Part shown: piece after piece, positions 20,855-27,015 of the stretch
Layout of the letters: every line of letters starts with the position of its first letter
Numbering within the stretch: position 1 is the first letter of the stretch
NCBI GenBank assembly: GCA_947476735.1
Contig: CANJRZ010000002.1
Span: forward strand, 1 to 64,000
DNA from: Sphingomonadaceae bacterium
Lineage (GTDB): Bacteria; Pseudomonadota; Alphaproteobacteria; Sphingomonadales; Sphingomonadaceae
DNA: 64,000 bases
Direction of reading: 5' to 3'
Translations under genes and position numbers: made by a program
Notes under the pieces: generated by a model
Seen by the model: only the letters and a program-made list of their open reading frames with translations
Database searches by the model: none
What the model was told of the DNA's origin: nothing

Positions 20855-21011
20855 AAAAATCCGAGGCTACCGGCGCGACCCTAGTGGCGAGCGCCGCTGG
20901 CCCCCCGTAATAGGTAGACACCGGCTTCTGGGCGCCTCGCGCATTGCAAATTGATAGCAGATAAGGTATATTGCCATCAACGATGTCAATCAAACCGGAG
21001 TGCGATCAGCT

Positions 21012-21266
21012 ATGGCAGCCGTCACGATTCGCAACTTGTCCGATGAAACATACCGTGCCTTGAAGGTAAGGGCAGCGCATCATGGGCGCAGTGCCGAGGC
21101 TGAGATGCGCGAAATTCTGGAACATGCCGCGCGACCGACCGACCGCGTCAAACTGGGATCGTTGCTGGTCTCCATCGGCCGGGAGGCCAGCATGAGCGAC
21201 GCAGAAGCAGAGCATTTTGCTCAGCTGCGTGACAAGACTCCTGCCGAGCCTATGAGGTTCGAGTGA
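21012..21266 (+). CDS. FitA-like ribbon-helix-helix antitoxin
   Basis: MAAVTIRNLSDETYRALKVRAAHHGRSAEAEMREILEHAARPTDRVKLGSLLVSIGREA. Confidence 0.85.
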   Translation: MAAVTIRNLSDETYRALKVRAAHHGRSAEAEMREILEHAARPTDRVKLGSLLVSIGREASMSDAEAEHFAQLRDKTPAEPMRFE

Positions 21267-21688
21267 TCCTGCTCGACACCAATGTAATCTCAGAGCTGTG
21301 GAAGCCCGTGCCTGACCCGCATGTCCTGGCATGGGTCGATGCTCAAGTGATCGACACACTCTATCTGTCGGCCATAACCGTGGCCGAGCTTCGTTTCGGC
21401 ATTGCCGCCATGCCGGCCGGCAAGCGACGTGAAACGCTTGATCGCCGGTTGGAACAGGAAGTGCTGCCCCTGTTTGACAGCCGCGTTCTGCCGTTCGACT
21501 TGGAAGCCTCGCGGGCTTTCGCCCACTTGATGGTGGTGGCGAAGGACGCGGGTAGAGCGGTTGGAACAGCTGACGGCTATATCGCGGCCACGGCTGCGGC
21601 AAGTCGCCTTATAGTCGCCACCCGAGACACGAATCCCTTCGAGGCGGCCGGAATAAGCACCGTCAATCCTTGGATGGCTTCACTCTAA
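21263..21688 (+). CDS. FitB/VapC-type PIN-domain toxin
   Basis: MILLDTNVISELWKPVPDPHVLAWVD...LSAITVAELRFGIAAMP...TADGYIAATAAASRLIVATRDTNPFEAAG; start overlaps antitoxin stop. Confidence 0.9.
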   Translation: MILLDTNVISELWKPVPDPHVLAWVDAQVIDTLYLSAITVAELRFGIAAMPAGKRRETLDRRLEQEVLPLFDSRVLPFDLEASRAFAHLMVVAKDAGRAVGTADGYIAATAAASRLIVATRDTNPFEAAGISTVNPWMASL

Positions 21689-23885: not shown

Positions 23886-24278
23886 ATGTCCGATCGACCA
23901 ATCTCCCTTGCCCCAGCCATGGATCGTATCTCGACCATCGCGACCCTCAACGACGCGCTGCGGCAGAACCTCACTCAACCCGGCCATAACCGCGTGGTGA
24001 TGACCCTCGGCGTCCAGGATCTGATCGGCGACGTCAGCCTGTTCCGCAACTTCCATGCCCGAGCCGAATTGCTCCGCGCTATCCGGGATTATGATCAATT
24101 CGGCGTCGACGTGGATCCGCACGGCGAGCGGGATTTCGGCCGCTTCACGTTTCGCGACGCAGCGCTTTACTGGAAGATCGATTATTATGATCGCGCGCTC
24201 GACTTCGGCTCACCCGATCCTGCCGATCCGCAAGTCACCACCCGGGTGGTGACAATTCTCCTGACCAGCGAATATTGA
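23886..24278 (+). CDS. DUF3768-like protein
   Basis: Within ORF 23736..24278; MSDRPISLAPAMDRISTIATLNDALRQNLTQPGHNRVVMTLGVQDL...AIRDYDQFGVDVDPHGERDFGRFTF. Confidence 0.75.
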   Translation: MSDRPISLAPAMDRISTIATLNDALRQNLTQPGHNRVVMTLGVQDLIGDVSLFRNFHARAELLRAIRDYDQFGVDVDPHGERDFGRFTFRDAALYWKIDYYDRALDFGSPDPADPQVTTRVVTILLTSEY

Positions 24279-24337: not shown

Positions 24338-24355
24338 AGTCTGCTTGAGCAGACT
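24338..24355. repeat. 18-bp near-perfect palindrome, left copy
   Basis: AGTCTGCTTGAGCAGACT; matches 26998..27015 at 17/18. Confidence 0.85.
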
Positions 24356-24389: not shown

Positions 24390-24423
24390 GCCGCACCTGT
24401 ATTGAATTCAATACAGGTGCGGC
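24390..24423. promoter_or_regulatory. 34-bp perfect palindrome, candidate partition site or operator
   Basis: GCCGCACCTGTATTGAATTCAATACAGGTGCGGC; all 17 pairs checked by hand. Confidence 0.75.
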
Positions 24424-24457
24424 ATAGTCTTTCTACCTTGTTGTCTGGGAGGAGAGG

Positions 24458-24706
24458 GTGCCGGTGGGGGGTGCAGGGCAGGGGAGCGAAAGCAGGCGTT
24501 CCGCCTTTTTGCAGCTTCGGGTGACCCCGACGATGCACAGCGCGATCATGCGCCTGGCGCTCGACCACGACAATCTCACAGTCCGCGCGCTCGTCATGAA
24601 CGCACTCAAGCAAACCTATGGTCTCGATGTCCCTGACGAGGAGCTTCGCGACCGGCGCGGCCGTCAGGCACGACCAGCGCATTCCGAGGAGACCGACCAT
24701 GGCTGA
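24458..24706 (+). CDS. Small putative ribbon-helix-helix-type protein upstream of parA
   Basis: FLQLRVTPTMHSAIMRLALDHDNLTVRALVMNALKQTYGLDVPDEELRDRRG; GTG start at 24458 or 24464. Confidence 0.5.
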   Translation: MPVGGAGQGSESRRSAFLQLRVTPTMHSAIMRLALDHDNLTVRALVMNALKQTYGLDVPDEELRDRRGRQARPAHSEETDHG

Positions 24707-24872
24707 GTATTTTTCGCGGCATCCTGATCATGCCATCCTGTTTGCGTTCGCCTGCTTTGCGCTGACCGTCTATCTGTTCCGCTATGTCGGACCCCGGTTC
24801 GGCGCGCGCGGCGACTGGTCCGCGCGAGACCATTATGAGCGCAACCTTCGTAACGGCGGCGACGACTTTTGA
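24699..24872 (+). CDS. Small single-TM protein (57 aa)
   Basis: ATG 24699: MAEYFSRHPDHAILFAFACFALTVYLFRYVGPRFGARGDW. Confidence 0.5.
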   Translation: MAEYFSRHPDHAILFAFACFALTVYLFRYVGPRFGARGDWSARDHYERNLRNGGDDF

Positions 24873-24900: not shown

Positions 24901-25665
24901 GTGAAGACCATCGTGATCAGCCTGCTGAAAGGCGGCGTCGGCAAGACCTTCTTTGCAACCCATCTCGCCTGGTATCTCGCCGAGCAGGAAGGGCGGAGGG
25001 TCGCGTTTCTCGACCTGGATCCGCAGGGGAGCTCGACGCGGCGTTTGGCGAAAGAGCGGACGGGCCTGTTCTCGGCCGACCTGTTCGATCCCGAAGCGAA
25101 GCTGGCGGTCGGCGACACGGCGGGGATCACGGTATTTGGTGCCGACTCCCGGCTGCAGATGATCAAGGCCGCAGAGGATGTGCGTGATTTCATCGTCCGG
25201 TTTCGCGCGCTGCCCGAGCATTTCGACTATTGCGTGATCGACACCGGACCCAAGTGGGACGAACTCACCCTGAGCGCGATGGCGGTCGCCGATGAAGTCA
25301 TCGCGCCCGTCCAGGTCGCCGAAGACTCGATCGAGTGCGCCAAGATGCTGCTGACGGCACTGAAAAAGGCAGAAGCCGCGCGCGGCGGTCGCAAGGTCAA
25401 TTTCCTCGGGCTGTTGCCCTCGATGGTGAATGCCTTCGACAAGCGCGAGATGGACAATGCCGTGAAGCTCGCGACGGCGGTCGGGCCGACGATGATGTTC
25501 CCGGCGTTCGTGAAGGCCCGCCCGACCTACAAGCATTCGGCCGAGAACCACCATGCGGTCTGGCACGAGAAGGGAAGCGGCGCCAAGGCGGCATCGGAGG
25601 AAATCCGCAGCATCCTCGCCGAAGTGGAGCGCCGGGTAGAGGCGCGGACGAAGGAGACCGCCTGA
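24901..25665 (+). CDS. parA: ParA family ATPase
   Basis: MKTIVISLLKGGVGKTFFATHLAWYLAEQEGRRVAFLDLDPQGSSTRRL; start GTG. Confidence 0.93.
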   Translation: MKTIVISLLKGGVGKTFFATHLAWYLAEQEGRRVAFLDLDPQGSSTRRLAKERTGLFSADLFDPEAKLAVGDTAGITVFGADSRLQMIKAAEDVRDFIVRFRALPEHFDYCVIDTGPKWDELTLSAMAVADEVIAPVQVAEDSIECAKMLLTALKKAEAARGGRKVNFLGLLPSMVNAFDKREMDNAVKLATAVGPTMMFPAFVKARPTYKHSAENHHAVWHEKGSGAKAASEEIRSILAEVERRVEARTKETA

Positions 25666-26561
25666 TGGGCAAGTTCGACCAACGGGCCGAAGAATTCGGG
25701 ATGCTGGTCGGCGCGCACGAGAGTGCGCGCCGCGTCGAGGATTTGCCGCTTGAGTGGATAATCCCCGATCCCGGCAATCCTCGCACACAGTTTGACGAGA
25801 GCGAACTCGCCGAGTTGGCCGCGTCGATCGAGGCACGCGGCGTCCTGCAGCCGATCATCGTCCGGCCCAAGGATGCGGACGGCAAGCACATCATCCGCAT
25901 GGGCGAGCGGCGCTACCGCGCCTCGCTCACGGCTGGGAAGAAGACCATTCCCGCGATCGTCAGCGATGTGGGGGAGGGGGGCGATATCCTTGCCGACCAG
26001 ATCGTCGAGAACGACCAGCGTGCCGGCCTCTCCGCGCAGGAGCTTGCGCTTGGCGTCGAACGGATGCTGGCAGAGGGCAAGAACCAGGCCGACATCGCCA
26101 AGGCGCTTGGCCGCTCCAAGCAGTTCGTCTCGCTCTATGCGGCTTATGGCGAGATGGAGCCGTATCTGCGCGAGGCGATCGACAAGGCCCCCATCCGCGT
26201 CCTCTACGATTTGCACCGCGCTGCCCGAAAGCATCCGGTCGAGGTGCGCGCATTCGTCGGGAGCTTCGGCGATCGCGGCGTGACGCTTGCCGAGGGGACG
26301 AAGTTCGTGGCGTCGCTAAAAGCGCCGGTTGCAGTAGAGGATGTACCAGCCCGGACTGAGGCTCCTTCGGCGCCGATGGAGCCGACGCCGGCGAAGGGAG
26401 CGGGCAGGGGAGGGCGGTCCTCGACGCCTACCCAGGCAAGCCCGGTCAAGGTGATGGTCGGAAGCCGTCCCGCGCGCCTGGTCCTGCCCGAACGGGTCCG
26501 GGTCGTGTTCGATGACGGCGACGAGATTGAGGTGGCGTCGACCGACCTGTCGTTCGATTGA
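25665..26561 (+). CDS. parB: ParB family partition protein
   Basis: Within ORF 25335..26561; ATG 25665 overlaps parA stop; WIIPDPGNPRTQFDESELAELAASIEARGVLQPIIVRP...IIRMGERRYRAS...QIVENDQRAGLSAQELALGVERML...QADIAKALGRSKQFVSLYAAY. Confidence 0.93.
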   Translation: MGKFDQRAEEFGMLVGAHESARRVEDLPLEWIIPDPGNPRTQFDESELAELAASIEARGVLQPIIVRPKDADGKHIIRMGERRYRASLTAGKKTIPAIVSDVGEGGDILADQIVENDQRAGLSAQELALGVERMLAEGKNQADIAKALGRSKQFVSLYAAYGEMEPYLREAIDKAPIRVLYDLHRAARKHPVEVRAFVGSFGDRGVTLAEGTKFVASLKAPVAVEDVPARTEAPSAPMEPTPAKGAGRGGRSSTPTQASPVKVMVGSRPARLVLPERVRVVFDDGDEIEVASTDLSFD

Positions 26562-26895: not shown

Positions 26896-26929
26896 ATGGC
26901 GGCATCCCTTTTTCCAGGGATGCCGCCAT
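26896..26929. terminator. Strong terminator downstream of par operon
   Basis: ATGGCGGCATCCCT-tttttcc region-AGGGATGCCGCCAT, perfect 14-bp stem, followed by TTTTCATTTC. Confidence 0.85.
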
Positions 26930-26997: not shown

Positions 26998-27015
26998 AGT
27001 CTGCTTAAGCAGACT
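26998..27015. repeat. 18-bp perfect palindrome, right copy
   Basis: AGTCTGCTTAAGCAGACT; same element as 24338..24355. Confidence 0.85.

Follow-up and report, generated by a model that had tools for sequence, protein, structure and literature searches.

The 34-bp perfect palindrome at positions 24390-24423 of the window (the whole stretch of 64,000 nucleotides analyzed here) is best explained, with a probability that we put at about 0.8 from sequence comparison, as the operator of an RHH-like autorepressor that would control an rhh-orf-parA-parB operon. According to the mechanism that we propose, dimers of the RHH-like protein, whose gene lies 35-41 bp downstream, would occupy the 16-bp core GTATTGAATTCAATAC (24399-24414), probably as a dimer of dimers. 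The centre of the core would provide the -35 box, and the bound protein would exclude RNA polymerase. This would repress rhh, the gene of a small membrane protein, parA and parB, the repressor's own gene being included, and the partition proteins would be held at a low level. In large sphingomonad plasmids, a 16-bp operator of the par operons and a small protein without a name are given a likely function in this way, and the operator is set apart from the probable centromere.

The palindrome, GCCGCACCTGTATTGAATTCAATACAGGTGCGGC, is made of 17 complementary pairs out of 17 with no spacer, as the initial annotation of this DNA had described it. It is present in a single copy in the 4.58-Mb assembly, even when up to three mismatches are allowed, and is longer than every other perfect palindrome of the window, the runner-up being 22 bp long. 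With the composition of the window the chance expectation for perfect palindromes of 34 bp is about 1.2e-5 per 64 kb, and 30 order-2 Markov simulations gave a longest half-arm of 11, as compared to 17 in the palindrome. Conservation is however concentrated in its centre. The related par loci fall into two lineages, lineage I, which includes the window, and lineage II, which comprises pHSL1, pDS1, pCFD-1-1 and two draft genomes. When 8 distinct lineage-I sequences were aligned on the palindrome centre the core was 100% identical, and identity outside it was 43% in the outer arms, 37% in the left flank and 44% in the right flank. In lineage II the core is found in the degenerate form GTATTGAgTTCAtTA. 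The full 34-bp perfect symmetry is restricted to the window and Novosphingobium lentum, whose palindromes differ at one position that is changed on both arms, and some relatives retain just a palindrome of 16-18 bp. The conserved signal is consequently the 16-bp core, which we predict to be the functional part of the operator, and the longer symmetric arms that bring the palindrome to 34 bp are an extension peculiar to the lineage. Complementarity of the outer arms in the 8 sequences exceeds the row-permuted expectation (39 vs 28 of 72 cells), with a P of about 0.001 that is indicative only because these sequences are related. Such symmetric change is not accounted for by simple base-specific binding and could reflect either template switching at quasi-palindromes or selection for symmetry.

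The palindrome stands at the head of a par locus. About 35 sphingomonad plasmids, pSWIT02 of Rhizorhabdus wittichii RW1 among them, have a homologous locus, with ParA 76-90% identical, and the majority of those examined were typed as conjugative (MOBP, MPF_T). The gene order is a DUF3768 gene, the RHH-like gene where it is present, the gene of a 57-aa probable membrane protein, parA, parB with a KorB domain, mobC/nikA and a relaxase gene. Both open reading frames that the initial annotation had relied on, 24458-24706 and the ParB frame 25665-26561, were found in the window. The first of these, on the forward strand like the three genes that follow it, encodes the RHH-like DNA-binding protein that we predict to be the autorepressor, and its start may alternatively be the GTG at 24464. 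It shares 8 nucleotides with the next gene (24699-24872), which encodes the 57-aa probable single-pass membrane protein, is conserved between the RHH slot and parA, and had no family in a Pfam search. This gene is also retained in plasmids lacking the RHH gene. After a gap of 28 nucleotides comes parA (24901-25665), which encodes a Walker-type ATPase (Pfam AAA_31, 9e-21) with homologues 76-90% identical on sphingomonad plasmids, and which overlaps parB (25665-26561; Pfam KorB 2.5e-23 and ParB_N 3e-23, NCBIfam TIGR00180 4.3e-34). Since the genes overlap or nearly abut, they likely form a single rhh-orf-parA-parB operon. Three other features of the window were observed in passing: a FitA/VapB-type antitoxin with a PIN-domain toxin look-alike, recognized by eye (21000-21688); a 20-bp perfect palindrome, GTCACCACCCGGGTGGTGAC, within the 3' end of the DUF3768 gene (24234-24253), to which pSWIT02 and pTB1 have near-perfect counterparts; and, after a small zinc-ribbon ORF, a 14-bp inverted repeat with a 6-nt spacer and a T-rich tail (26896-26929) that is likely an intrinsic terminator.

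The RHH-like protein is 82 aa long and is encoded by the first gene of the par operon. Pfam and NCBIfam searches returned no family of its own, and a Pfam 'Pop8' match, which was under its cut-off, was taken as chance. Comparison by hhalign aligned the protein with Arc/HicB-like proteins (Prob 95, E 3.4e-8), and these profile relatives themselves pass the Pfam HicB cut-off, one of them also passing that of Arc. The monomer model (pLDDT 70) has an extended segment followed by helices at residues 24-36 and 42-54, and this strand-helix-helix pattern, in a model of moderate confidence, would be that of an RHH monomer. Neither a Foldseek search with the model nor a sequence search of the PDB with the protein gave a match. 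The RHH assignment is thus indirect, through a transitive profile match together with the helices of the model.

To what extent the core accompanies this gene can be judged from its distribution. Out of 401 genomes of the family, three contain the exact core, and these are also the three with a close orthologue of the RHH-like protein (at least 78% identical), core and gene being adjacent each time. Among 26 par loci the core was present in all 17 that carry the RHH gene, 12 times in its exact form and five times as GTATTGAgTTCAtTA, and in none of the 9 that lack it. Searches of whole plasmids lacking the RHH gene, allowing up to two mismatches, did not find the core anywhere, and where it does occur there is one copy per replicon, invariably upstream of the RHH gene. 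On a tree of ParA and ParB two changes suffice to explain the gain and loss of the core, which means that the independent events behind the co-occurrence are few. The palindrome therefore has two of the features expected of an autoregulatory operator, in that it lies directly upstream of the gene of its own proposed regulator and is conserved together with it. Autoregulation by the RHH protein had been one of several options in the initial annotation, and it is now well supported by this co-occurrence, by the conservation of the core and by its overlap with a candidate promoter.

The candidate promoter, TTGAAT-N17-TAGTCT (24402-24430, forward strand), would have its -35 box at the palindrome centre. 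Relatives have TAGTTT, TAGCCC, TAAGGG or GATCAT as -10 boxes at equal spacing, and lineage II has TTGAGT-N17-TATGGT. The geometry of a TTGAAT or TTGAGT box followed after 17 nucleotides by a TA box is accordingly found in most lineages, with -10 boxes that are weak. A strict generic sigma-70 scan did not call TTGAAT-N17-TAGTCT, and the promoter therefore remains a proposal, in which it is plausible that the core centre doubles as a -35 box.

Two further palindromes, which the initial annotation had omitted, flank the par genes. The left copy, AGTCTGCTTGAGCAGACT (24338-24355), is the best candidate for a parS site or ParB operator, and such a palindrome flanks par throughout the lineage-I plasmids tested; the right copy, AGTCTGCTTAAGCAGACT (26998-27015), another such candidate, lies upstream of the mobC/nikA-relaxase genes, where it perhaps links the control of partition to that of transfer. 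The chance expectation for matches to these palindromes is 0.02. Sites of this type, AGTCTGCTTRAGCAGACT, occur twice in each lineage-I plasmid searched, one on either side of parAB, except in pSWIT02, which has four. The extra pair of pSWIT02 (CP000701.1, at 82188 and 84446) lies at a distance of about 33 kb, where it seems to surround a second par locus. Lineage II has a ParB 42% identical to that of the window, with the recognition helix SCKPAEITQFAA in place of the GRSKQFVSLYAA found in all lineage-I ParBs aligned. Its plasmids carry four CTATGCAYRTGCATAG palindromes each, two per side of parAB (at 2454, 2915, 5267 and 5348 in locus L013, and also in L042-L045), and a search of the pHSL1 plasmid for the AGTCTGCT palindrome found none. 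The RHH protein of lineage II is 54-56% identical over the matched core, and its gene retains the core-like GTATTGAGTTCATTA in the equivalent position. From centre to centre, the core-type site is 63 bp from the nearest ParB-type palindrome in lineage II and 60 bp in the window. As lineage II has kept the core in spite of an altered ParB helix and altered flanking palindromes, the core goes with the RHH gene, and the other palindromes go with ParB. The two par lineages thus represent a natural specificity swap, in which ParB helix and palindrome change and the RHH operator stays constant, and this makes the assignments of the ParB site and the RHH site directly testable.

These observations bear on the proposal, also made in the initial annotation, that the 34-bp palindrome is the parS centromere or an operator of the KorB-like ParB. 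Such a role would fit a palindrome that is located upstream of parAB and conserved among close relatives. A parS site is however expected wherever its cognate ParB occurs, and the palindrome is missing from 9 par loci whose ParB is 57-63% identical and has the same recognition-helix stretch where aligned. In these loci, as in the window, AGTCTGCTTRAGCAGACT flanks par. A parS site should also change with the specificity of ParB, and upon the change of the helix it is the AGTCTGCTTRAGCAGACT palindrome that changes, not the 34-bp site, whose core persists in lineage II. AGTCTGCTTRAGCAGACT is for these reasons a better parS/ParB candidate than the 34-bp palindrome, which we find improbable in this role, and the AGTCTGCTTRAGCAGACT palindromes on either side of parAB are probably where ParB acts. 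The initial annotation had named absence of the palindrome from otherwise conserved par loci as the result that would speak against its reading; the nine loci do so for parS, and they leave a role as RHH operator unharmed. That the adjacent RHH protein is not the ligand, and that the operator belongs to another plasmid or host regulator, is unlikely. The link between protein and site is drawn from their sequences, which leaves some room for this idea, but site and RHH gene are gained and lost jointly, stay adjacent and occur in one copy per replicon. Sites elsewhere, or in plasmids without the RHH gene, would be the expected trace of a host or global regulator, and a global regulator was rejected because the core is single in each plasmid or genome.

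The palindrome might instead act as RNA, as a leader hairpin, an attenuator or an intrinsic terminator of the par transcript. The predicted hairpin is very stable (z -5.7), the outer arms show symmetric changes and a scan returned a weak terminator-like call. This call was made solely via ATAGTCTTTC, so that the statement in the initial annotation that there is no T-tract is roughly right. What is conserved, however, is an invariant sequence rather than a mere pairing pattern, and the palindrome is reduced to 16-18 bp in some relatives and is imperfect in lineage II. As compared to an intrinsic terminator, which combines a stem-loop with a conserved T-tract, the stem is long and the T-tract is weak, and the T-rich tail is not conserved among relatives. 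An Rfam search gave no match at the palindrome and one sub-threshold match elsewhere, and we regard a function as RNA as quite improbable. Long perfect palindromes also occur at replication, resolution and recombination sites, and this general resemblance is what speaks for such a site here. We consider it very improbable, given that neither in the window nor in relatives does a recombinase or replication gene adjoin the palindrome, and that related plasmids without the palindrome do not need it; the replication or resolution option of the initial annotation is left with no evidence. A phage origin was rejected after a viral pattern scan and a search of a phage collection gave no match.

The arrangement can be compared to three kinds of known systems; in the open-access literature searched, both the core and the flanking-palindrome motifs were unreported, and none of the papers listed was a study of this par family. 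RHH autorepressors such as ParG, omega, CopG and Arc/HicB-like proteins control plasmid par, copy-number and antitoxin operons. The locus described here has in common with them a small RHH-like protein encoded by the first gene of the operon and a predicted palindromic operator over a candidate promoter. In the ParG and omega systems the RHH protein doubles as the centromere-binding protein, whereas here a full KorB-type ParB is also present and the small protein matches no named family.

In the korA-incC-korB operon of RK2 (IncP-1), KorA, sitting at OA within the core promoter, stalls a KorB clamp that was loaded at a separate OB and locks it, with OB-distal spacings of 45 bp to more than 1 kb (PMC11790492). 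As in RK2, the ParB of the window has a KorB domain (Pfam KorB 2.5e-23), the gene of a small and here predicted DNA-binding repressor precedes parA-parB, and a candidate operator in what would be the core promoter is accompanied by a separate KorB/ParB-type palindrome upstream. Unlike in RK2, the small regulator is RHH-like, which KorA is not known to be; the small protein belongs to no Pfam or NCBIfam family and its profile relatives are Arc/HicB-like, so it does not qualify as a KorA homologue. In addition the operator is found once per plasmid and not at many promoters, its sequence is unrelated, and a membrane-protein gene intervenes. It is conceivable, though doubtful, that the RHH protein at the palindrome stalls and locks a KorB-like ParB clamp that was loaded at AGTCTGCTTRAGCAGACT, about 60 bp upstream, and that par is thereby repressed cooperatively. 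If so, a protein of unrelated fold would have taken over the role of KorA as clamp lock, and sister plasmids would have lost both it and its operator. The parCAB locus of Myxococcus pMF1 is likewise a three-gene par operon in which a small gene before parA helps to repress the operon, and a ParA-like protein of Sphingobium was reported to resemble its ParA most closely (PMC3235114). The extra small gene preceding parA is common to both loci. According to the report on pMF1, its ParC does not itself bind DNA and its ParB binds iterons (PMC3235114), whereas in the window the small protein is RHH-like and predicted to bind DNA, and the candidate ParB site is a pair of palindromes.
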